Positions 1,990-20,307 of a stretch of DNA of 37,349 nucleotides are shown in pieces. The notes below the pieces were generated by a model that saw nothing but the letters and a program-made list of their open reading frames with translations, had not been told where the DNA came from and did not search any database. The stretch is from positions 1 through 37,349 of the IMG/VR virus record IMGVR_UViG_3300006078_000003. One strand, written 5' to 3'. The first letter of the stretch is position 1; the number at the start of each line of letters is the position of its first letter. The stretch comes from a virus. Both the position numbers and the translations under genes were made by a program.

Positions 1990-2094
1990 TTACTAGCCAA
2001 AGGCAAGTGTCTTAAGACAGACACTTGCTGAGGCACTTTAAACGGTGCCAATGGCGTTAATGTGTTTAACATGTTAATTGCTCCGTGCTAGTAA
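1990..2094 (+). ncRNA. Multi-stem structured RNA element in leader of the next gene
   Basis: An 8-bp helix, ttactagc (1990-1997) with gctagtaa (2087-2094), closes a region holding a perfect 10-bp hairpin (gcaagtgtct 2003-2012 with agacacttgc 2019-2028), a 5-bp hairpin (ggcac 2032-2036 with gtgcc 2045-2049) and a weaker ttaa-based hairpin around 2057-2077. The structure ends about 10 nt before the ribosome-binding site at 2104-2108. It is not a tRNA (too long, no T-loop) and lacks the hammerhead CUGAUGA/GAAA core. It may be a leader element, a processed small RNA or a 3'-end structure; its identity is unknown. Confidence 0.55.
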
Positions 2095-2114
2095 CCTCAT
2101 ATAAGGAGAAAAAA

Positions 2115-3290
2115 ATGTCTTCAAGAAAAGTAAAAATTAATGGCGTAATGGTCAAGTTCGATTTTAAAAAGGACAAGAAATACAAGTACGACAAAAAAGG
2201 TAATTTGGAAGAAGTAGGTCATGTTAATTCATCAGTTGATACAGATGATGATATCATATTTTCAGGATCAAAGTCAAGTTTAAGACGTATGGCTGATCTA
2301 GAACGTAACGTTTCAATTCTAGCAACTAGATCGTTGACGTCGTCAACAGTTGATATTGATATCGACGATTTAGATGATTTGTACGATGACTTATTCGACG
2401 AAAAAGTAAAATTTAAAGGCGATGTAAAGTTTAAAGGTGACGAAGTAGTATTCGATGATGATACTACGGTTGAAATCGAAGGCCCTTTGCTTTTGTCAGC
2501 ACCGGCACGAAGCACAATTGATTCATTAATTGACACAAAGATAAATGCGTTAGTTGCAGGTGCTCCAGCAGCATTGAATACGTTAAACGAATTAGCAGCA
2601 TCATTAGCTGATAACGCTAACTATGCTTCAACTATTACTACAGCATTAGCTGGTAAAGTAGATAATAACCAAGTATTAACTAACGTACCAGCAAACGCGA
2701 AGTTTACTGATACTAACACTGATACTGATACTACATATTCATTTATAGCAGGTACAAACATTAGTATATACCAATCGGGTACTAATGTTACATTTTCATC
2801 AACTGACACCAATACAGATAGTAACACTTATGCCACTGGTATGAGCTTTAACACTGGAACTGGTGTGTTAACAACTTCACGCAACGATGGTGGATCTGTA
2901 TCGGTTGATTTAGATGGACGCTTTACTGATAACGGTTATGCTGATGCTATGAATCAACATACAACTACAACATCAAATGTTAACTTCAATACTGTAGTAG
3001 CAGCAGGTGATATTACTGCATATTCAGATGAACGTTTAAAAGAAAATGTTAAGGTTATTGATAACGCAGTAGAAAGAGTACAAGGTGTGACTGGTGTTAC
3101 GTTTACACGTAAGGCTGATGGCTCAACTAGTACTGGTGTTACAGCACAAGAATTACGTGCGGTACTTCCTGAAGCGGTACATGTCGATAAAGACGGTATA
3201 CTTTCAGTAGCATACGGTAACGTAGTTGGTCTTTTGATTGAAGCTGTTAAGGAATTAAAAGCAGATATCGATGAATTAAAGAAGAAGTAA
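2115..3290 (+). CDS. Tail fibre protein with C-terminal S74 self-cleaving chaperone
   Basis: The product has 391 residues. The ATG at 2115 is chosen because aaggag (2103-2108) lies 6 nt upstream; the in-frame GTG at 2085 falls in the structured leader and has no such site. The N-terminal third is basic and then Asp-rich, a LNTLNELAA module follows, then a K-V-D-x-x-x-V-L-T-x-V-P-A-x-A-x-F-T-D-T element, and the C-terminal 90 residues are a peptidase S74/intramolecular chaperone domain. The SDERLK motif places the nucleophile at Ser304 and the partner at Lys309. In this family the domain assists fibre trimerisation and is then cut off just before the Ser. A terminal coiled coil (E-L-K-A-D-I-D-E-L-K) fits. 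The gene probably encodes a receptor-binding or accessory fibre. Confidence 0.85.
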   Translation: MSSRKVKINGVMVKFDFKKDKKYKYDKKGNLEEVGHVNSSVDTDDDIIFSGSKSSLRRMADLERNVSILATRSLTSSTVDIDIDDLDDLYDDLFDEKVKFKGDVKFKGDEVVFDDDTTVEIEGPLLLSAPARSTIDSLIDTKINALVAGAPAALNTLNELAASLADNANYASTITTALAGKVDNNQVLTNVPANAKFTDTNTDTDTTYSFIAGTNISIYQSGTNVTFSSTDTNTDSNTYATGMSFNTGTGVLTTSRNDGGSVSVDLDGRFTDNGYADAMNQHTTTTSNVNFNTVVAAGDITAYSDERLKENVKVIDNAVERVQGVTGVTFTRKADGSTSTGVTAQELRAVLPEAVHVDKDGILSVAYGNVVGLLIEAVKELKADIDELKKK

Positions 3291-3461: not shown

Positions 3462-5351
3462 ATGGCAAGACTAACACAACAGGGAGTCGTATTCCCAGAC
3501 GGCAGTGAATTAACCACAGCTACTGGAACAAAAGGCGATACTGGCATACAAGGGCCAGTAGGTGATACTGGCATACAAGGAACAAAAGGCGATACTGGCA
3601 TACAAGGGCCAGTAGGTGATACTGGCATACAAGGGCCAATAGGTATTACTGGTAATACCGGAGCAGATGGCGCAGATGGTAATCTTACTGGACCAATAGG
3701 TCCTATAGGAAACCCAGGCCCAATTGGTCCGCCAGGTATAGACGGGACACCAGGTCTAGACGGAGCATTAAATGCTGTGCCGCATGTAGATGGTACTGCT
3801 ACTGTTGGTAATGCTAGTGGAATGTCTAAGATTAAGTTTTCTGAAACAGCCACACAGCACGGTTTTTTAGAAGCTAAACATGAAGATAGTCAAAGTGGTT
3901 CACCAACTGCTGGATACTCATTTCATTTCTCATCTGATCAACCTACAACAAATGTAGTACTTGATGATGGTGGTAAGTTCATTGGAAATCTTCAAGGTAC
4001 GGCAAGTGGTAACGCTACAGAGGCTTATGTTGATACAGCAGTTTCTAATTTAGTAGACTCAGCACCTGCTACATTAAACACATTAAACGAGTTAGCGGCG
4101 GCATTAGGCGATGACGCTAATCACGTTACTACAATGACTACCTTAATCGGTGGTAAGTTACCTTTAACAGGTGGAACATTAACAGGAGCATTAACTGTTG
4201 CTCATAATGATGGGTTGACTATTAAGAGTCATACTAATGGCGCATATGCGAAATTAAAATTTACTGACAATATTCCATCTGGTGGTCAAAATGGTTGGAT
4301 TCAATATCAACATAGTGATGGTTCTATAGATGCTGGATCAAATGATGGTTTTGTCATTGGTGGAACAGAACCCCATACTATGGTCAGGATTAATGGGTCG
4401 TTAAACATTAACGGCACTGATGTTATTGGTACAGACGCTAAGATTGATGGTGGAAGAATTAAAGGCACGGTACCTAACGCTGGTAGTCTAGATGGTTTAG
4501 ATTCTACTAAGTTTTACAGAGAGGTAAGCACAGGCTCAGGCACGGTAGGACCAGGTTGGATAACAGTTGCTCATTCAGATAGTGGAAGACATAGTGGAGA
4601 AGTAATTGTCTCAGATTCTGAGAGTAGCGACCACGCGTTCATTCGTATTGATTGGATACGTAGTTATGCCGACTCTGCTTTTACAGTTTTAAATTGTGGT
4701 GGTCACTCCAACAGGATAACAGGTGCTAGGGTCTTGCATGAAACTGCTGATAATACATATGGCTGGAAGAAACTACAGGTTTATGTAAGTACATCTTCTA
4801 ACTATAAAGTACAGGTTATGAAGACAGGTGCTACCCCAGGGTGGGGAGACCATAGTACGGTTAACCCTGTACTACAAAACTCTATTACTGGGTACTCACT
4901 ACACGGCAAACAAGTTTCAGATACAGCTAGCTACAACCTCGCGGCTGAAGAGGGTATTTACTCAGGCGGAAACATAAAGGCAGAAGGCCAGTTGTTGGCA
5001 GTGGGTGATGTTATTGCATACTACTCAGATGATAGACTAAAAACCCAGATTGGTAATATTGAGTCTCCCTTACATAAAGTACAGAGCCTAAGCGGGTTCA
5101 TTTACGTGGAGAATGAACTAGCGAACTCCATTGGGTATAATAACCCGGATACACAAGTAGGTGTATCTGCTCAAGAAGTTAAGGCAGTACTTCCAGAGGC
5201 TGTAACCATTGCCCCGTTTGATAGAGACGATCTTGGCAAATCTAAATCTGGCGAGGACTATTTAACAGTAGACTATGCTAAGATGGTCCCGTTACTAATC
5301 GAAGCTATTAAAGAGTTATCAGCAAAGGTTGATGAGTTAGAGAAGAAGTAA
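3462..5351 (+). CDS. Collagen-like tail fibre with C-terminal S74 chaperone domain
   Basis: The product has 629 residues; the ATG is set by aggag 8 nt upstream and a perfect late box. Residues about 22-104 are collagen-like Gly-X-Y triplets (repeated G-D-T-G-I-Q-G-P-V units, later G-P-I-G-P-P-G), which form trimeric rods in phage fibres. A LNTLNELAAALGDDAN module follows at about 205, then a central region with a P-L-T-G-G-T-L-T-G-A-L-T element typical of phage fibre shafts. A C-terminal S74 domain has SDDRLK at Ser522/Lys527. The distal domain is expected to be released autocatalytically after trimer folding. A region around residues 350-480 (W-I-R-S-Y-A, H-S-N-R-I-T) may be the receptor-binding head; its ligand is unknown. 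Confidence 0.88.
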   Translation: MARLTQQGVVFPDGSELTTATGTKGDTGIQGPVGDTGIQGTKGDTGIQGPVGDTGIQGPIGITGNTGADGADGNLTGPIGPIGNPGPIGPPGIDGTPGLDGALNAVPHVDGTATVGNASGMSKIKFSETATQHGFLEAKHEDSQSGSPTAGYSFHFSSDQPTTNVVLDDGGKFIGNLQGTASGNATEAYVDTAVSNLVDSAPATLNTLNELAAALGDDANHVTTMTTLIGGKLPLTGGTLTGALTVAHNDGLTIKSHTNGAYAKLKFTDNIPSGGQNGWIQYQHSDGSIDAGSNDGFVIGGTEPHTMVRINGSLNINGTDVIGTDAKIDGGRIKGTVPNAGSLDGLDSTKFYREVSTGSGTVGPGWITVAHSDSGRHSGEVIVSDSESSDHAFIRIDWIRSYADSAFTVLNCGGHSNRITGARVLHETADNTYGWKKLQVYVSTSSNYKVQVMKTGATPGWGDHSTVNPVLQNSITGYSLHGKQVSDTASYNLAAEEGIYSGGNIKAEGQLLAVGDVIAYYSDDRLKTQIGNIESPLHKVQSLSGFIYVENELANSIGYNNPDTQVGVSAQEVKAVLPEAVTIAPFDRDDLGKSKSGEDYLTVDYAKMVPLLIEAIKELSAKVDELEKK

Positions 5352-5441: not shown

Positions 5442-5900
5442 ATGAATACAAAACAACATAATAGTCATACCTCCATTTCTAAATTTAAAAGAATTCAAGA
5501 TGATAGGTATGGCAATTTAACATGGAAAGATATACCATTTGAAGAACTGTATGTAACTGATAGTCAATGGAATAGTTTTGATATAGAACATGTAAAGGAT
5601 ATATTAGACCATTTTCATCCTGCGTTACTCAGAGCGTCCAGCGTGGCGTTAATAGATGGAAAGTATATACTGTGGGAAGGACAACATAGCGCAACTGTAG
5701 CATATCTTGCTGGTATGGATAAAATACATTGTGGTGTATATAAATGTGATGATATGAAGTTCAAAGATGTGCCGAGCGTGGAAAAGTTTTCACAACCACA
5801 ATTAGCAGATTTGATTTATATGTTTATGGAAGATACTGGAATACAGACAATAGATGAAGTTATTAAGTATATAAAAATACCTGACTACATCGCAGAATAA
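5442..5900 (+). CDS. ParB/sulfiredoxin-like domain protein
   Basis: The product has 152 residues. Residues about 44-105 resemble the ParB-like N-terminal fold: a helix (I-E-H-V-K-D-I-L-D-H-F), a beta strand with D-G-K-Y-I-L-W, the E-G-Q-H-S-A-T-V-A loop-helix at 79-87 in the position of ParB G-E-R-R-x-x-A, then an I-H-C-G-V-Y-K strand. Phage proteins of this fold include DNA-binding, nuclease and nucleotide-hydrolysing members, so the activity here is open. The classic Arg residues of ParB box II are replaced by Gln-His-Ser. It sits alone between fibre genes with no good Shine-Dalgarno sequence, and a late-promoter-like box directly abuts its ATG. Confidence 0.65.
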   Translation: MNTKQHNSHTSISKFKRIQDDRYGNLTWKDIPFEELYVTDSQWNSFDIEHVKDILDHFHPALLRASSVALIDGKYILWEGQHSATVAYLAGMDKIHCGVYKCDDMKFKDVPSVEKFSQPQLADLIYMFMEDTGIQTIDEVIKYIKIPDYIAE

Positions 5901-5934: not shown

Positions 5935-6354
5935 ATGGCATTTAGAAAAGTACAAATATCAAATTTACAAAGCACAGACAGCGCACTTGATGATTCTATA
6001 ATTGTGGTAGGGAAGTCCAATACCTCACCTACTGATATTGGAATATTAGGTAAGATTGGAATAAATGAATATGCCGGACTAGTTCGTGATGCTGAAACTT
6101 CAACTTTTTATTTAATTGATAGTTATACAAGTTCTATTGGCAATAATGACATCGATGCAAATAATGTTGTACAAAAAGGATCGTTAGCAGTAGGCACCTT
6201 AGAAGCAGATGTGAGCATTGTAGTACCCTCAGGAACTACCGTAAACCGTCCAAATTCCCCCGTAGCCGGGCAGATATGGTTTAATACAGATACTAGTACA
6301 TTTGAAGGTTACGATGGTTCTCAATGGATCATATTTTTACCAGCAACACTTTAG
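5935..6354 (+). CDS. Small virion/tail protein with G-x-x-W-F...G-x-x-W module
   Basis: The product has 139 residues. It begins M-A-F-R-K-V-Q-I, as many small phage structural proteins do. Residues about 100-135 form a beta-rich module, R-P-N-S-P-V-A-G-Q-I-W-F-N-T followed by F-E-G-Y-D-G-S-Q-W, common in phage tail and collar proteins and also seen here in gp14, gp15 and gp18. No catalytic motif is visible. Its position between fibre genes and a late-type box support a virion role. The ATG has no strong Shine-Dalgarno sequence. Confidence 0.65.
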   Translation: MAFRKVQISNLQSTDSALDDSIIVVGKSNTSPTDIGILGKIGINEYAGLVRDAETSTFYLIDSYTSSIGNNDIDANNVVQKGSLAVGTLEADVSIVVPSGTTVNRPNSPVAGQIWFNTDTSTFEGYDGSQWIIFLPATL

Positions 6355-6407: not shown

Positions 6408-9017
6408 ATGGCATTCAAAATTGTAAACCCAGATGGGACAGTAGTAGATCTTGAATTGGGTGAAGTAACATCCAGTATCACTGGCCTAGATGTTGAAATA
6501 TCAGAAGAATCTATAAGAGCAACAGCAGCAGAATTATTACTACAAAATCAAATTGATGATGAAGTACTAACTAGAGCTAATGCTGATACTAGTTTCACGG
6601 GTGTTGTGACGGCATTTGGATCCCAGCTGACAACTAATGTTGACAGTATTAATACTTTAGAAACAAAGGTTCTTGCCTTAGAAACAAATCCATTATTGTC
6701 ATTTGATGATGATGTTATAATTGCTACTGACAAAAAACTAATTTTGGGTAATGCTGAAAATATTACTATGAGCTATAATAGTATAGATACTAGTATTGTG
6801 TTTCAAATTCCACCACGTGTGTCAGATGAGAATTATGTTCCAACATTATCAGTGTTCACTCCAGAAACTCATCCATTAGATCCTATATTTAATGACTTTG
6901 TGGAACCTATAGGAACTGAACCATGGGTTGTGAATACATATTCGCCAATACGAGCTTATGAAGATTTACCCACAAATGTTGATCTTAGAATACATAATTT
7001 AGATATTGATGATCAAGGAAATTCAGGTTCATGTGTTGGTAACGCCACCGCATCTATATTAGAAGTATTAACTGAAAGAATTAATAGAGGACTTGGTTTC
7101 CCTGGTGTATATACTAATTTTTCATTTATGTTCTTATATTGGGAATTAAGAAACGAAATAGGAGAGACAGGAATAGACGGCGGATCATGGCCACATGATG
7201 CGTTTGATGAAGTTAAGGAACATGGTATTTGTGAATTTGATGTGTGGAATAAAGAATCACAAGGTTATGCTAATGCTAGTGATTTTGCATTAATTCAACC
7301 AAGTGCAGCAGCATATACAAATGCTTTGAATTACCGAATAGAAAAAGAAGGCGGGTACAAGAGTATTGATAATTTGAATTTAGTGTTGGATATGAAAGAA
7401 GCACTGTCTAAAGGTCTGCCGGTTATGGCTTCAATTACAGTTACCAACGCCATCTTTGGTATTACTGGACCAATAGCATCACACACATATAGAGGTAGTT
7501 TGGACGGATCTGCCGCTGTAGGCGGACATGCCATGGCAGCATTAGGGTATGATGATTCATTAGGTGGATTTATTGTAGAAAATTCATGGGGATCTTTTTG
7601 GGGCGATGGCGGATATATGTTACTCCCATATGATGTATATGAAGCAGACAGTTATGCTGGTGAAACAGTGGTAACTACTTCATTTATGGGAGTAACATTA
7701 GATGGTGATAATTATATAGATTATGGAGCAAATAATGATATACACTTCAAATCAGGAGATAAGAAATGTTTGTCAATAATAAATTCATCAACACCACATG
7801 TTGAATTATTTAGTAATGGTTATAAAAGACTATCTACTTCAACCGTTGGACTTGATGTTTTTGGACAGTTAACAGCCGATACATTTAAAGGTGATGCATC
7901 ACAAATATCTGGTTTAGAAAATACACTATTTGCTCAGGAATTAAATGCCCAATTTGCCAATAAAGTAGACAGTACAAGAGTTCTTACTGATGTACCAGCT
8001 AATGCGATATTTACAGATACAACATCAACATATGTACATCCAGCAACACATTCTATTACTGAGGTTGCTGAATTACAAACTGCGTTAGACGCAAAAGTAG
8101 ACAGTACAAGAGTTCTTACTGATGTACCAGCAGGCGCGGTATTTACTGATACTGATACTAATAATTATGTAACCGGATTGACATATGTTGATGGTTCTTT
8201 AAACATGCAACAGACTGGTGGATTAGCTGATTTGTCGGTTGTAATAGTGTCAGAATTATTACCAGTAACACCACCTCCAGAAGTGACAATGTCACCAGAT
8301 CAGACTTTTATTGGATCTGCGACTATAACAAATTGGGATACATATTCTCCAGCGGAAGTGTATGTAACTATTTTAGACACCGCAGGCAATCCAGTAATAT
8401 CATCAGCTGATATTACAACTATTGACGGACAAATTTCAATACCGTTAACGGTATTGACTACAGGTGTCAGTTATGTGTGTGAAGTTCGAGTTCTAGAAGT
8501 TGCAAAGACAGTATCTGTTCCGACAGTAATTACATTTGCCAAACAAACCCCTACTTATAGATATTGGAGATTGGCAGGATTTGTTAAAGCAGAAGGTGAG
8601 GTCTCTACTGTGATGATTGGAAATTGGAGTTTGCAAGCAACTGAAGCCGGATTGTTGGCGACATATCCTGAAATTATGACGACAAACACAGCACCATTTC
8701 CATATGTTGCAACAGCCGAATCATATTTTGTTTCTGCTACAACATATGATCCATTCCGTGCGTTTGATAGTCTAACAACCACATCATGGTGGACGTTGGG
8801 AAGTACATCCGCTGCGGCTGATCAATGGTTACAGATTGATTTGGGAGTATCAGTGAGTATAGATTCAATGATAATTACAACTGGATTATTGGCCGGTTAT
8901 GCCCCATCATCGATAACTATTTTAGGAAGTGACACTGGTGAATTTTTAGGAGATGAAGTCAATTTAGGAACATTTTCTATTGATACTACCGTAGCAACTG
9001 ATACTACTATTGGATAA
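6408..9017 (+). CDS. Tail protein with papain-like (C1) protease and discoidin-like domain
   Basis: The product has 869 residues. Residues 1-100 are a fibre-like N-terminus with helical repeats. Residues about 190-425 match a papain-type cysteine peptidase: oxyanion Gln203 and nucleophile Cys209 in D-Q-G-N-S-G-S-C-V-G-N-A, His374 in G-G-H-A-M-A-A-L-G-Y, and Asn392 in E-N-S-W-G-S-F-W-G. All four expected residues occur in the correct order. Two copies of K-V-D-S-T-R-V-L-T-D-V-P-A follow (about 525-585), then a beta-sandwich-like segment and, from about 720, an F5/8 type C (discoidin)-like carbohydrate-binding domain (F-R-A-F-D-S... W-L-Q-I-D-L-G). No signal peptide is seen. Likely roles are digestion of a surface protein during adsorption or processing of neighbouring fibres; which one is not decided by sequence. 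Confidence 0.85.
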   Translation: MAFKIVNPDGTVVDLELGEVTSSITGLDVEISEESIRATAAELLLQNQIDDEVLTRANADTSFTGVVTAFGSQLTTNVDSINTLETKVLALETNPLLSFDDDVIIATDKKLILGNAENITMSYNSIDTSIVFQIPPRVSDENYVPTLSVFTPETHPLDPIFNDFVEPIGTEPWVVNTYSPIRAYEDLPTNVDLRIHNLDIDDQGNSGSCVGNATASILEVLTERINRGLGFPGVYTNFSFMFLYWELRNEIGETGIDGGSWPHDAFDEVKEHGICEFDVWNKESQGYANASDFALIQPSAAAYTNALNYRIEKEGGYKSIDNLNLVLDMKEALSKGLPVMASITVTNAIFGITGPIASHTYRGSLDGSAAVGGHAMAALGYDDSLGGFIVENSWGSFWGDGGYMLLPYDVYEADSYAGETVVTTSFMGVTLDGDNYIDYGANNDIHFKSGDKKCLSIINSSTPHVELFSNGYKRLSTSTVGLDVFGQLTADTFKGDASQISGLENTLFAQELNAQFANKVDSTRVLTDVPANAIFTDTTSTYVHPATHSITEVAELQTALDAKVDSTRVLTDVPAGAVFTDTDTNNYVTGLTYVDGSLNMQQTGGLADLSVVIVSELLPVTPPPEVTMSPDQTFIGSATITNWDTYSPAEVYVTILDTAGNPVISSADITTIDGQISIPLTVLTTGVSYVCEVRVLEVAKTVSVPTVITFAKQTPTYRYWRLAGFVKAEGEVSTVMIGNWSLQATEAGLLATYPEIMTTNTAPFPYVATAESYFVSATTYDPFRAFDSLTTTSWWTLGSTSAAADQWLQIDLGVSVSIDSMIITTGLLAGYAPSSITILGSDTGEFLGDEVNLGTFSIDTTVATDTTIG

Positions 9018-9037
9018 ACATAACAAGAGGATAGAAC

Positions 9038-9265
9038 ATGGCAGAATATCAATTAAGAATTGAATGTAGAGACTGCATATTAACATATGCTGATGAAGAG
9101 ATGCAACGAAACGCGGCATTGACTGGGGAAAATATGGATTATGTAATGACTGTATTGTTTATGTTACGTAATGACTATCAAAGACATATTGAAAGGAATG
9201 ATATTACGTTTGTTCCTGATCAATCAGTCGTAGATTATTTAGAATCAATTAAACCTTGGCTATAA
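9038..9265 (+). CDS. Small hypothetical protein (75 aa)
   Basis: The product is a soluble-looking 75-residue protein of mixed composition. The ATG follows agagga 8-13 nt upstream and lies 20 nt after the protease-bearing gene, so the two are probably co-transcribed. It has two Cys close together (E-C-R-D-C) and a C-terminal V-V-D-Y-L-E-S-I-K-P-W-L. It was not recognised. It could be a chaperone or accessory protein for the upstream tail gene, judged by position only. Confidence 0.6.
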   Translation: MAEYQLRIECRDCILTYADEEMQRNAALTGENMDYVMTVLFMLRNDYQRHIERNDITFVPDQSVVDYLESIKPWL

Positions 9266-9298
9266 CAAAAGCTTGTGGTTATTATACATGATTTTTTT

Positions 9299-9306
9299 AA
9301 TAAATA
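9299..9306 (+). promoter_or_regulatory. Late-promoter-like AATAAATA
   Basis: TAATAAATA lies 34 nt before the ATG at 9341; the predicted start is near 9312 and aaggag (9328-9333) follows. Confidence 0.55.
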
Positions 9307-9340
9307 ACATGTATAAAACAAACATTTAAGGAGATGAATT

Positions 9341-9565
9341 ATGGCATTACCAGCAACTGGATCGCAAATGACGATGGGAACTGTGAGAAACTATTTTGGT
9401 TTAAGCGGAGCTGTTTCGTTATATCAATTAGGAACATACATTACCCCAGCAGTGACGAGCAACATTCGCTTATCAGCTACGTTTGGCGGTTGGCAGAATC
9501 CTAACACTTGGGGTACAACTTCAGGAGTAAACCCTACTGCAGATGATTACGCTCAGTTAGGCTAA
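9341..9565 (+). CDS. Small structural-type protein (74 aa)
   Basis: The 74-residue product starts M-A-L-P-A-T-G-S-Q-M-T-M-G-T-V-R-N-Y-F-G, a start typical of short phage virion proteins in which a Met-Ala-Leu-Pro leader precedes small beta repeats. A strong aaggag lies 7 nt upstream and a late-type box further up. It is Gly/Thr/Ser-rich with no Cys. Its place at the end of the fibre region before a strong hairpin suggests a tail or fibre accessory, but the exact role is unknown. Confidence 0.65.
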   Translation: MALPATGSQMTMGTVRNYFGLSGAVSLYQLGTYITPAVTSNIRLSATFGGWQNPNTWGTTSGVNPTADDYAQLG

Positions 9566-9593
9566 TAACTTTAAGTTATCCAACGTAATAAAT

Positions 9594-9623
9594 CAGAAGA
9601 CATCCATTAATGGATGTCTTCTG
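9594..9623. terminator. Strong 13-bp hairpin, likely terminator
   Basis: cagaagacatcca (9594-9606) pairs perfectly with tggatgtcttctg (9611-9623) around ttaa. No direct U-tract follows, so termination may be weak or the hairpin may act in 3'-end protection. The 9566-9746 gap otherwise holds only the two promoters listed. Confidence 0.6.
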
Positions 9624-9663
9624 GCCTCTGGTCTGAAAGTCTTACTGTTTGAATTTTTTAATG

Positions 9664-9671
9664 TATAAATA
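9664..9671 (+). promoter_or_regulatory. T4-type late promoter (TATAAATA)
   Basis: A perfect TATAAATA lies upstream of the gene at 9747 and 15 nt before an early-type promoter, so this unit may be read both early and late. Confidence 0.7.
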
Positions 9672-9685
9672 TGAATATATTAACA

Positions 9686-9714
9686 TTGACAAAATATAAA
9701 AAATGTATTATAAT
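9686..9714 (+). promoter_or_regulatory. Early (sigma-70-type) promoter TTGACA-17-TATAAT
   Basis: TTGACA (9686-9691) and TATAAT (9709-9714), both consensus, are spaced 17 nt. The predicted start is near 9721, followed by ataggag and the ATG at 9747. Confidence 0.85.
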
Positions 9715-9746
9715 AAAATTTACAATAAGAAAAATATAGGAGAAAT

Positions 9747-10166
9747 ATGAGTATACGTACAAAGTTTGAAATCGAGACGTTTGTTTTAGGTGCACACCCA
9801 ACACAGTCTAGAAAGGCAATGGCATTGATGGAAGAGTTAGAAGAAGCAAGAGCCACTTCTCATCCGGATCTATCGGTACTGGAAGAGATTTATACTGAAT
9901 TTTCGAAAGAAAATGATGTCGAAGCACTAATTTCTGATATTAACAATGATGAAGAACAATATTGGGTTGAAAGATTAGCCAAGCTTGCCGCTATTGATAT
10001 TCTTACAATTGGAAAAGTACAGCCAGAGCATATGAATTATATGGCTAGTTTGTCCGATGACGCATTTGTTGCCGCTGTAAAAGGTGCGACAGTTTTTGCA
10101 AAGAAACTTAATGCACACGTTCGTGATATTGAAGAAGAGTTAAGTGCTGATTTAGTAGCTGACTAA
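9747..10166 (+). CDS. Hypothetical helical protein (139 aa)
   Basis: The product is acidic and predominantly helical (M-A-L-M-E-E-L-E-E-A-R, then long Ala/Glu-rich stretches), with no Cys and no recognised motif. A taggag sequence stands 6 nt before the ATG. It heads a likely operon with the two glycosyltransferase-like genes (2 nt gap to the next), behind both a consensus early promoter and a late box. It could be a virion or early accessory protein; no function is assigned. Confidence 0.65.
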   Translation: MSIRTKFEIETFVLGAHPTQSRKAMALMEELEEARATSHPDLSVLEEIYTEFSKENDVEALISDINNDEEQYWVERLAKLAAIDILTIGKVQPEHMNYMASLSDDAFVAAVKGATVFAKKLNAHVRDIEEELSADLVAD

Positions 10167-17658: not shown

Positions 17659-17692
17659 TATGAGTAAATATATTTATAGGAGAAAAAAAGCT

Positions 17693-18376
17693 ATGTCAAA
17701 AATAACACTATTGCGTGATGAAAAAATAACGCAACAAGCAGTAATTGAATCAAAGCAGGAAACAAAATTTATGGATGCTCAATATTTCTTTCAAGGCGCT
17801 GGAGATATAGTACCATTAAATATTTGGATGCCTGAGAATGCGTTGGCTGAAGTAAAAGCACTTCATGCAGATAAAGAAGCACACGCTATGTCAAGAAATG
17901 AAAGTGATACAGATGATCACAATTCATATAAAAAAGGCGGAATTGACCTTAAAGAAGTACCATCTAATTGGGGAATCCCAACACATGCTGGCACTGTTGG
18001 TAGTTTAGCATATGATAAGGGAGACTTTTTATTCCCACACCGTGACAAATGGCACAATGTTCAAGAGAACGGTGAATTAAGAGGAAATGGCGGTAATGGC
18101 GTTCGTTTAATTTGTTTTTTAAATAAAACAAGTCCTACAGAATTTCATTTTGTAGTAGATGGCAAGATCACAGTATTAGAGCCTGGACGTTGGTACGCGG
18201 TTAACACTCAACGAGTACATTATGGTTTTAGTTTCGTAGATGACGTATACCACGTTGGTTGTGAACTAAAATTTAATGAAGAGAATAGACAAGAAACATC
18301 TAAGTTCCTTTTAACTGCTCTTGAATTTAACCAACCATTCAACGACCGTAAGGGTGTTGATTGTACACGTAATTAA
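17693..18376 (+). CDS. Fe(II)/2OG oxygenase-like protein, paralogue 1
   Basis: The start at 17693 is set by aggag (17678-17682) and by the late box, whose transcript begins after the earlier ATG at 17660; the product is 227 aa. Metal-site residues are His116-Arg-Asp118 in L-F-P-H-R-D-K-W and His176 in R-V-H-Y-G-F-S-F, in a double-stranded beta-helix context (V-R-L-I-C-F-L-N, F-H-F-V-V-D-G, G-R-W-Y-A-V-N-T). The layout resembles the aspartyl/asparaginyl hydroxylase type, but I see no clear Arg after the distal His to bind 2-oxoglutarate. It ends D-R-K-G-V-D-C-T-R-N, shared with the next gene. Confidence 0.7.
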   Translation: MSKITLLRDEKITQQAVIESKQETKFMDAQYFFQGAGDIVPLNIWMPENALAEVKALHADKEAHAMSRNESDTDDHNSYKKGGIDLKEVPSNWGIPTHAGTVGSLAYDKGDFLFPHRDKWHNVQENGELRGNGGNGVRLICFLNKTSPTEFHFVVDGKITVLEPGRWYAVNTQRVHYGFSFVDDVYHVGCELKFNEENRQETSKFLLTALEFNQPFNDRKGVDCTRN

Positions 18377-18391
18377 TAAAGGAGATTTGAT

Positions 18392-19027
18392 ATGAGTCAA
18401 GTAATAGTAGACGCTGATTATTTTTTTGCTAAGGCAGGAAATATTATAGCGTTAGATCAATGGCTTCCTGAGAATGTAATTGACCAGATTGATGCATTAA
18501 ATGCTGATCAGTCAAAACATTTAAGATGGAGAGAAGAAAACGACAATTTAGATGGAAACGATGACCACGCTGGTAACAAGTATGGCGTTGAATATAATCA
18601 TGTTCCTACAGGATGGGGATTACCAGATCACGCTTCAACTGTTTCTTATCTTGGTTATGATAAGGGAGATATGCTTGCCCCACACAGAGATAAATGGAAG
18701 AGTACAGCAAGAAGAATTGATGCAAATGGTTACATTAAACCAAACAACGGAATGCGTTTAATAAATTTTGCAAACGCTACAAAATCAACAGAATTTCATT
18801 TCGTAGTTGACGGTGAGATATTCCAACCAGAACCAAGAAGATGGTATGCTATAAACACACAATTAGTACACTATGGTTTTAGTTTTGTTGATAATGTTTA
18901 TCACATAACAGCAGATATTACATTTAAAAAGGATCATAGAATGGAGTCTATTAATTATCTTTTAGATAATATGGAATATTCACAAGATCCAATGGATAGA
19001 AAAGGTGTAGATTGTTCTAGAAACTAA
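18392..19027 (+). CDS. Fe(II)/2OG oxygenase-like protein, paralogue 2
   Basis: The product has 211 residues and starts 15 nt after paralogue 1, with aaggag upstream. It is a clear tandem duplicate: Y-F-F-A-K-A-G-N-I-I-A-L near the start, P-H-R-D-K-W with ligands His98 and Asp100, E-F-H-F-V-V-D-G, W-Y-A-I-N-T, His160 in L-V-H-Y-G-F-S-F, and the end D-R-K-G-V-D-C-S-R-N. Conserved metal ligands suggest both copies are active or bind a shared target. The C-terminal Cys, conserved in both, is not part of the metal site. A terminator hairpin follows. Confidence 0.7.
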   Translation: MSQVIVDADYFFAKAGNIIALDQWLPENVIDQIDALNADQSKHLRWREENDNLDGNDDHAGNKYGVEYNHVPTGWGLPDHASTVSYLGYDKGDMLAPHRDKWKSTARRIDANGYIKPNNGMRLINFANATKSTEFHFVVDGEIFQPEPRRWYAINTQLVHYGFSFVDNVYHITADITFKKDHRMESINYLLDNMEYSQDPMDRKGVDCSRN

Positions 19028-19048
19028 ACAAAGTTTTATAAAACAAAC

Positions 19049-19075
19049 AAAAAAGGTACTACGGTACCTTTTTTA
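19049..19075. terminator. Bidirectional rho-independent terminator
   Basis: aaaaaaggtac (19049-19059) pairs with gtacctttttt (19064-19074) around tacg, giving a U-tract on either strand. It sits between convergent genes ending at 19027 (plus) and 19082 (minus). Confidence 0.9.
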
Positions 19076-19081
19076 ATCTGT

Positions 19082-19675
19082 TCAATATTCTTTAGTCATT
19101 GGCAACATTCGCATTATTGTTTTAAGATTCCATTCATTGAGTGGGAGTGACATTACAATATGATAGATGTCATCACTAAACGTAAATGACCCGTGGGTTT
19201 TTCTTGTATTTAAAACATAGGGAACTCCGGGTTTAAATTTGATTAGGTTATCGTCAAGAAAAAACATCCAATCAGTATCATCGGTTCCATTCAATGGTAC
19301 AAAAATTCTAAACTGTTCATTAAACCGCCAAGCATCACGGTGTGGTCTGAAAAAAGAACCACTATTTAATTTGACAGCTCGACATCTTGCTAAAGAGTCA
19401 AATTTATTAAAAAAATCTACAAGTGATGGACAATTATGTAGATTTTCGTTACCCAATTGTCCAAACGAGTGTTTTTTAGTACTATCTCGATCATAAGATA
19501 GTTCTAGATCGTCGATTGGTCCATTCAGGTTGATAGCTTCCTTGTTACCATGTGTTGGAATCCATTGGGTGATATTTTTTAGTTCGCTAATAGTGTCCTC
19601 ATTGAATTTATAATCTAATTCAATGATATCACCATATGAACTTAGAATACTATGAAGACTTTGTACAGTATGCAT
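19082..19675 (-). CDS. Fe(II)/2OG oxygenase-like protein, paralogue 3 (minus strand)
   Basis: The product has 197 residues on the opposite strand from its relatives. It keeps F-F-R-P-H-R-D-A-W (His112, Asp114), a W-M-F-F-L-D-D-N strand, P-Y-V-L-N-T-R-K and His161 in K-T-H-G-S-F-T-F, then D-D-I-Y-H-I-V. It differs from paralogues 1 and 2 in the N-terminal half and lacks the C-terminal G-V-D-C motif. The ATG is supported only by frame and by a late-like box on the minus strand (19704-19711); no strong Shine-Dalgarno sequence was seen. Convergent with paralogue 2, sharing the terminator. Confidence 0.65.
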   Translation of the reverse strand: MHTVQSLHSILSSYGDIIELDYKFNEDTISELKNITQWIPTHGNKEAINLNGPIDDLELSYDRDSTKKHSFGQLGNENLHNCPSLVDFFNKFDSLARCRAVKLNSGSFFRPHRDAWRFNEQFRIFVPLNGTDDTDWMFFLDDNLIKFKPGVPYVLNTRKTHGSFTFSDDIYHIVMSLPLNEWNLKTIMRMLPMTKEY

Positions 19676-19703
19676 TTATATATTATGTAGTTATGTATAT
19701 ACT

Positions 19704-19711
19704 TATTTATT
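19704..19711 (-). promoter_or_regulatory. Late-promoter-like AATAAATA (minus strand)
   Basis: The minus-strand AATAAATA predicts a start near 19698, 23 nt before the paralogue 3 ATG. It is nearly back-to-back with the plus-strand box at 19716-19723. Confidence 0.4.
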
Positions 19712-19715
19712 TAGG

Positions 19716-19723
19716 AATAAATA
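19716..19723 (+). promoter_or_regulatory. Late-promoter-like AATAAATA
   Basis: GAATAAATAC predicts a start near 19729, followed by tggaga and the ATG at 19744. It supports that ATG over the upstream in-frame start at 19636. Confidence 0.55.
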
Positions 19724-19743
19724 CATATTATGGAGATAAAGAT

Positions 19744-20307
19744 ATGTTAGCAGTTGATTTTCACACTTTGTATGGTGATGTGACACCATTGGCTATTTTT
19801 ACCGAATTAGTTCCGCTAGATATGTCGTTGGTCAGAGATGTTCAATATGGTGAAGAATATACTGGAAATAAAACAGTATATCGATATTCATCACCTCCGC
19901 CTGAGATGAATCTGCCCGATAATATTGTTACCAACAAAGCAGTACGTGTTGAAAGTAATCAAGGATCATTTTTCTTACCACATCGTGATTTTATTGGGAA
20001 TGGTATAGATGGCGGAGTTGAACGGGTCAGACTAACATGCTTTGTGAATAATTCGCATCCAGAGGAATGTAGTTTCATTGTAGATGGAAAATTACAACAC
20101 TTTGAAAATAGACGATGGTATGCTTTGAATCCAAGAAAAACTCATTATTCATTTACTCTTAAAGATAATACGGTTCATTATGTAGTAAATATTGATATAA
20201 GTGATGAAACAACTGCATCTTGGTTACATAATAATATTAAATATGTAGGAGCTGCATATTCTAGTCCAGAACGGACAATGAATAGTTCGAGACAAGGGAC
20301 AAAATAG
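19744..20307 (+). CDS. Fe(II)/2OG oxygenase-like protein, paralogue 4
   Basis: The start at 19744 is chosen because tggagat lies 7 nt upstream and a late box precedes it; an earlier in-frame ATG (19636) would run through the divergent promoter region and add a hydrophobic stretch. The product has 187 residues: S-F-F-L-P-H-R-D-F (His80, Asp82), V-R-L-T-C-F-V-N, S-F-I-V-D-G-K-L, R-R-W-Y-A-L-N-P-R-K and His134 in K-T-H-Y-S-F-T-L. It combines features of paralogues 1/2 (strand sequences) and 3 (N-P/T-R-K-T-H). Its stop TAG overlaps the next gene's GTG by 1 nt. Confidence 0.68.
   Translation: MLAVDFHTLYGDVTPLAIFTELVPLDMSLVRDVQYGEEYTGNKTVYRYSSPPPEMNLPDNIVTNKAVRVESNQGSFFLPHRDFIGNGIDGGVERVRLTCFVNNSHPEECSFIVDGKLQHFENRRWYALNPRKTHYSFTLKDNTVHYVVNIDISDETTASWLHNNIKYVGAAYSSPERTMNSSRQGTK

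Follow-up and report, generated by a model that had tools for sequence, protein, structure and literature searches.

A C1A (papain-type) peptidase domain embedded in a probable phage tail fibre

The fibre locus and its sister loci

The window, i.e., the whole stretch of DNA analyzed, comprises the 37,349 bases of an IMG/VR record. It contains a cluster of fibre genes, the last of which is an open reading frame on the plus strand that runs from an ATG at 6408 to a stop codon ending at 9017, has no internal stop and encodes 869 amino acids; a purine-rich stretch lies 5' of it. The features of the locus are as follows, with the evidence for each in brackets; L numbers denote other viral contigs, and the slot is the gene position between the homologs of 5935–6354 and 9747.

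2085–3290, plus strand: neighbouring tail fibre with an S74 chaperone C-terminus (Pfam, PHROG)
3462–5351, plus strand: neighbouring collagen-repeat tail fibre with an S74 chaperone (Pfam, PHROG)
5442–5900, plus strand: small conserved fibre-cluster gene, a position marker (52–57% identity in L260, L263, and L264, in the same order)
5935–6354, plus strand: short fibre-type protein (MAFRK...) just upstream of 6408 (homologs at the same place in sister loci)
6408–9017, plus strand: probable 869-aa tail-fibre protein with an embedded C1A peptidase (ORF; Pfam and PHROG matches; synteny with sister tail fibres)
6408–6452, plus strand: N-terminal start MAFKIVN..., common to the slot fibre of the sisters, probable virion attachment end ([MVL]AFK[ILV] start once per sister locus)
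6504–6671, plus strand: residues 33–88, helix predicted at low confidence, possibly a coiled-coil stem (full-protein model, pLDDT ~50)
6951–7703, plus strand: C1A (papain/xylellain-type) peptidase domain, residues ~182–432 (PF00112, xylellain match, models, structural alignment)
7014–7016, plus strand: Gln203, oxyanion-hole residue (translation; alignment of relatives)
7032–7034, plus strand: Cys209, catalytic nucleophile (translation; alignment of relatives)
7527–7529, plus strand: His374, catalytic base (translation; alignment of relatives)
7581–7583, plus strand: Asn392, catalytic orienting residue, in VENSWG (translation; alignment of relatives)
8013–8240, plus strand: phage-tail repeats (PTR-like), residues 536–611 (identity to sister tail fibres; PHROG 24456; Alteromonas phage R22Y)
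8295–8507, plus strand: beta-rich, possibly Ig-like segment, residues ~630–700, low confidence (secondary structure of the model)
8709–8966, plus strand: discoidin-like (F5/8 type C) tip, residues 768–853, C-terminally short (Pfam; PHROG 17517 tail protein)
9747–10166, plus strand: conserved gene closing the fibre slot, right-hand marker (56–67% identity beside the slot in L257–L266; 32% in the more distant L267)

The large terminase of the window shares 55% identity with its counterpart in the Pseudomonas jumbo phage PA5oct group, and a terminase scan of IMG/VR yielded sister contigs, one with 100% identity (L168) and the rest mostly with 66–76%. L168 stops before the fibre genes, so it offers no confirmation of the ORF at 6408–9017. 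Eleven sister fibre regions were taken around the conserved tail-sheath-completion gene. Window and sister contigs have the same marker order (5442, 5935, slot gene, 9747, 10169, 10800, 11897, 12356); L260 matches the window on both sides of the slot, with a single large gene between the two flanking homologs, and L265 has one additional gene between the slot gene and the 9747 homolog. A slot gene with the start [MV]AFK[IVL] was found in eight of the 11 sister loci, which is every locus where the gene is visible, exactly once per locus; this start turned up three times among 4,309 ORFs (≥100 aa) taken from other loci, each time in a copy of one unrelated gene. An assembly chimera at 6408–9017 was considered and thought unlikely, given the single continuous ORF, the even G+C content, and the L260-like gene order on both sides.

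Gene position and N-terminal start are thus common to the ORF and the slot fibres of L258, L260, L263, L264, L265, and L266, and those of the L258/L259 and L263 lineages also have the PTR repeats in common with it. The sister slot proteins end in S74 in seven of seven distinct cases (Pfam; L259 nearly duplicates L258) and have no C1 domain, whereas the window protein has the C1 domain and a discoidin-like end and gave no Pfam match to S74 (PF13884). Scanning 30 sister contigs, themselves fragments, for PF00112 gave no match. Because slot, start, and repeats are those of the sister fibres, we read the ORF as the slot fibre with a protease inserted and its tip exchanged. By these comparisons it is very probably the slot tail fibre of its phage lineage, and the protease appears as a lineage-specific swap in which middle and tip changed and the shared tail repeats were kept. 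The sequence-only reading had assigned the protein to a tail fibre from its neighbours and shared repeats; synteny, the shared N-terminus, and the repeats in common with sister fibres now lend this assignment strong support, and the virion location that we infer stands on much better ground than the earlier neighbour argument gave it.

The fibre-type repeats noted earlier were confirmed: residues 536–611 are 48–53% identical to the repeats of sister tail fibres and match PHROG 24456 tail fiber (E 1.9e-9), and residues 511–582 are 50% identical to an Alteromonas phage R22Y protein, which also contains these repeats. The C-terminal part matches PHROG 17517 tail protein. The discoidin-like C-terminus proposed for this part scored just over the cut-off when it was scanned alone (F5/8 type C, 29.9 bits against a cut-off of 27.8, E 8.8e-7; a weak and short match that covers positions 2–68 of the 91 in the profile and leaves its end unmatched) and fell below the cut-off in the scan of the full protein. 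No continuation of this tip was found in other reading frames downstream. Loss of S74 by a frameshift was rejected, as no S74 remnant was recognized in any frame of 8900–9760. A search of IMG/VR with the whole protein returned only two close relatives, both at the discoidin end, and the N-terminus gave only weak matches to phage genomes, the best being a Vibrio phage tail fiber (E 0.02).

The absence of S74, which is terminal in the sister slot fibres, together with the presence of a protease in cis might suggest that the peptidase trims its own or neighbouring fibres during assembly and so replaces the missing chaperone. Maturation of neighbouring fibres had already been raised in the earlier reading. 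We disfavour it and regard such a maturation protease as improbable because the sister phages assemble orthologous fibres and no C1 domain was found on their contigs; moreover, the other fibres of the window keep S74 domains of their own, and the role of S74 is to chaperone folding, for which a protease would be no substitute.

Several minor features accompany the slot. Its distance to gene 9747 is ~730 bp in the window vs. ~360–450 bp in most sister loci, and two small ORFs (9038–9265, 75 aa; 9341–9565, 74 aa) lie in this gap. For the first, neither PHROG nor phage sequences nor 28 sister contigs gave a match; it could be a cassette partner, for example a chaperone or an inhibitor. The second weakly matches the PHROG family phrog_30374 (E 0.00024). 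Between the fibre cluster and gene 9747 lie a 13-pair hairpin (9594–9623) and a perfect TTGACA-17-TATAAT promoter match (9686–9714), possibly the boundary of a fibre operon. The slot fibre of L264 (4530–6962, minus strand) has a weak Ntox15-like match at residues 177–285 (19.0 bits, cut-off 22.5), probably a repeat artefact. Elsewhere in the window, at 17660–20307, several consecutive small proteins (197–238 aa; 17660, 18392, 19082, and 19636) look by eye like one family, with a common text of about HRD.W...VDG...WYA.NT..H that resembles repeated dioxygenase-like genes.

The peptidase domain

Residues 187–408 match Pfam Peptidase_C1 (PF00112) over positions 1–204 of the 220 in the profile (E 2.5e-10, 41.2 bits, cut-off 20.7). 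The catalytic set Gln203, Cys209, His374, and Asn392, described earlier as intact, holds for all four residues: the translation has Q, C, H, and N at these positions, and no other residue occurs there in any of the 83 aligned sequences, which were drawn from the window, viral contigs, and prokaryote genomes. The best sequence match of the domain in the PDB is xylellain from Xylella fastidiosa (3ois; E 4.7e-16, residues 178–412), which has the same catalytic set, and C209, H374, and N392 fall on its GSC, GGHA, and NSWG motifs, a placement made by sequence alignment.

An AlphaFold model of residues 165–444, built with the alignment of relatives, reached pLDDT 80 and pTM 0.82, with 136 of the 280 residues at pLDDT ≥90; in the full-length model, high confidence is confined to residues ~182–432. 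Xylellain is also the best structural match of the domain model (Foldseek E 7e-19; structural alignment Z 27.6, rmsd 2.4 Å over 236 residues), followed by many cathepsins at Z ~23. The papain fold that had been proposed for residues 185–430 is thus borne out by the model as well as by the above-cut-off PF00112 match, and that residues ~182–432 adopt the C1A papain-type fold is close to certain. Peptidase_C39-like (PF13529) scored 19.8 bits, under its cut-off of 24, and neither NlpC/P60 nor CHAP was listed at E ≤ 1 in the HMMER search of the ORF product, the filters of which drop most weak matches.

The domain differs from xylellain in its setting. Xylellain comprises 291 aa in the PDB entry, is not a fibre, and is of the type with a PDxRD-like segment, whereas the window domain lies inside an 869-aa fibre and no PDxRD-like motif was found in the 75 residues before its core. 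Of the relatives, 54 of 80 viral and 48 of 66 bacterial ones have this segment ahead of the C1 domain, which makes it typical, not universal. With the segment apparently absent, the protein is not filed here as a xylellain ortholog. In the tree of C1 domains the window sits on a long branch (end branch 1.6) beside the viral relative L009 and two Bacteroidota sequences, a placement that is uncertain; the domain is divergent and long-branch joining is possible, hence no origin is claimed. A phage C1 protein in BFVD (A0A6J5LAR6, 829 aa) has the same fold, 33% identity over the domain, and a similar length, and by these measures may be similar in build.

Just before the catalytic NSW the window protein has Glu where nearly all relatives among the 83 sequences have Arg. 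Swapping of lectin-like modules is common on fibres, and such swapping, together with this substitution, could indicate that the C1 fold serves only as an adhesin, its catalysis dispensable or lost. This appears quite improbable, as all four catalytic residues are in place, GGHA, NSWG, and WGDGGY are preserved, and L009 has the same Glu yet a full catalytic set. We consider the C1A domain likely to be catalytically active.

Proposed function

The enzymes carried by phage fibres are commonly taken to be hydrolases of polysaccharides or cell walls. The best reading of the present protein, which we hold to be moderately probable, is a fibre-borne C1A protease of a large T4-like myophage that acts on a host surface protein at adsorption. 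The peptidase domain would sit on the shaft of a tail (or side) fibre, with the N-terminal attachment end proximal and the repeats, the beta-rich segment, and the discoidin-like tip distal. On the virion the fibre would probably be a trimer and so present three proteases, and its tip might bind a cell-surface glycan or lipid. The tethered protease could then cut a surface or matrix protein of the host, such as an S-layer, pilus, outer-membrane, or sheath protein, and this cleavage might either clear the path to the final receptor or let the particle detach. Such a system would do to proteins what the depolymerases of fibres and tailspikes do to polysaccharides: both place an enzyme on the adsorption organelle, but those depolymerases cut glycans, whereas the domain described here has a protein-cutting fold.

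Several points count against this reading: the protease is placed toward the N-terminus of the fibre and not at the tip, the discoidin match is weak and short, the C1 domain is divergent, Glu stands in for the usual Arg before NSW, and the neighbour tally given below includes closely related phages. Being on the virion side of the repeats, the protease would act on what the fibre lies against. We infer attack on a host surface protein as the most economical explanation, and a substrate of this kind seems somewhat more probable than not. If true, some phages cut host protein layers during adsorption, which would matter for host range, for phages of protein-coated bacteria, and for anti-biofilm enzymes.

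NlpC/P60 and CHAP domains on tails cut peptidoglycan cross-links, and the protein could likewise be a virion-associated lysin whose C1 domain cuts peptide cross-links of peptidoglycan during entry. Some phage proteins of the same fold are indeed named endolysin, peptidoglycan-binding protein, or muramidase, the C1 gene of THSA-485A adjoins a GH25 lysozyme, and the nearest viral relative, L009, adjoins genes reading like lysis genes. However, the window domain scores as C1, its C39-like match remaining below cut-off, and its top structural match is a named cysteine protease. Moreover, it is located on a fibre and not on a tail hub or needle, and from a fibre it would not be expected to reach peptidoglycan under an outer membrane; no cell-wall-binding domain was found in the ORF product. 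A lysin is therefore unlikely, and cleavage of a host surface protein is preferred.

A study on Klebsiella phages describes polysaccharide depolymerase enzymes on adsorption organelles (PMC6872550), and the papain-like domains mentioned for jumbo phages are of the NlpC/P60 type only and sometimes tail-associated (PMC7824862). Enzyme-bearing fibres are thus already known; a C1A protease as the fibre enzyme was not found described in the literature searched, which most subscription journals lay beyond.

C1 peptidases in other phages

The protease domain as sole query found no close relative in IMG/VR, and an alignment-based search was therefore needed. A scan of viral contigs with the domain alignment gave at least 428 relatives among the 600 pattern matches listed. 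Among the best 80 of these, 77 are stand-alone genes of ~233–305 aa and three are long. That most phage C1 peptidases among the matches listed stand alone would also suit an intracellular protease that merely happens to sit in the fibre cluster, but for the window protein this is highly improbable, as it has the slot, N-terminus, and repeats of the sister tail fibres.

A fibre-borne protease has parallels in which C1A is likewise joined to adhesin modules of phages. L026 and L029, two contigs encoding one identical protein, have Laminin_G_3 fused to C1, and in L027 C1 is fused to collagen repeats with a fibre tip. These are other phages with other partner modules and with C1 at one end, whereas C1 is embedded in the window protein. 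The same partners also occur as separate genes. A collagen fibre homologous to that of L027 is encoded in L385 by a gene of its own adjoining the C1 gene, and a LamG protein in L270, 96% identical over 246 aa to the LamG fused to C1 in L026, stands alone on a contig where no C1 was found. L270 and L026/L268 form a with/without pair, the LamG gene of L270 being followed by another LamG-like gene. A LamG-C1 fusion suspected in L278, L282, and L284 was rejected; C1 has its own ORF there.

In a tally of 112 proteins from genes adjoining phage C1 genes, 12 carry LamG, 10 belong to the baseplate wedge-tail fiber connector family and four to a baseplate wedge subunit family, and three have the Mtd N-terminal domain (Mtd_N); these are raw counts without a matched control, many of them come from related phages, and one protein may count in more than one class. 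Genes that are fused in some genomes and adjacent in others usually have a functional link. Both arrangements occur with adhesins here, and we favour the view that these peptidases belong functionally to the adsorption apparatus. It is conceivable, if somewhat short of probable, that C1A peptidases form a recurrent, swappable module of adsorption organelles, a "proteolytic depolymerase" of tail fibres cutting host surface proteins that is sometimes built into the fibre, as in the window, and more often encoded beside LamG or collagen adhesins. In L018 (2–1585), a gene for a subtilase (Peptidase_S8) sits immediately upstream of the C1 gene, a hint that other proteases, too, occur near such genes.
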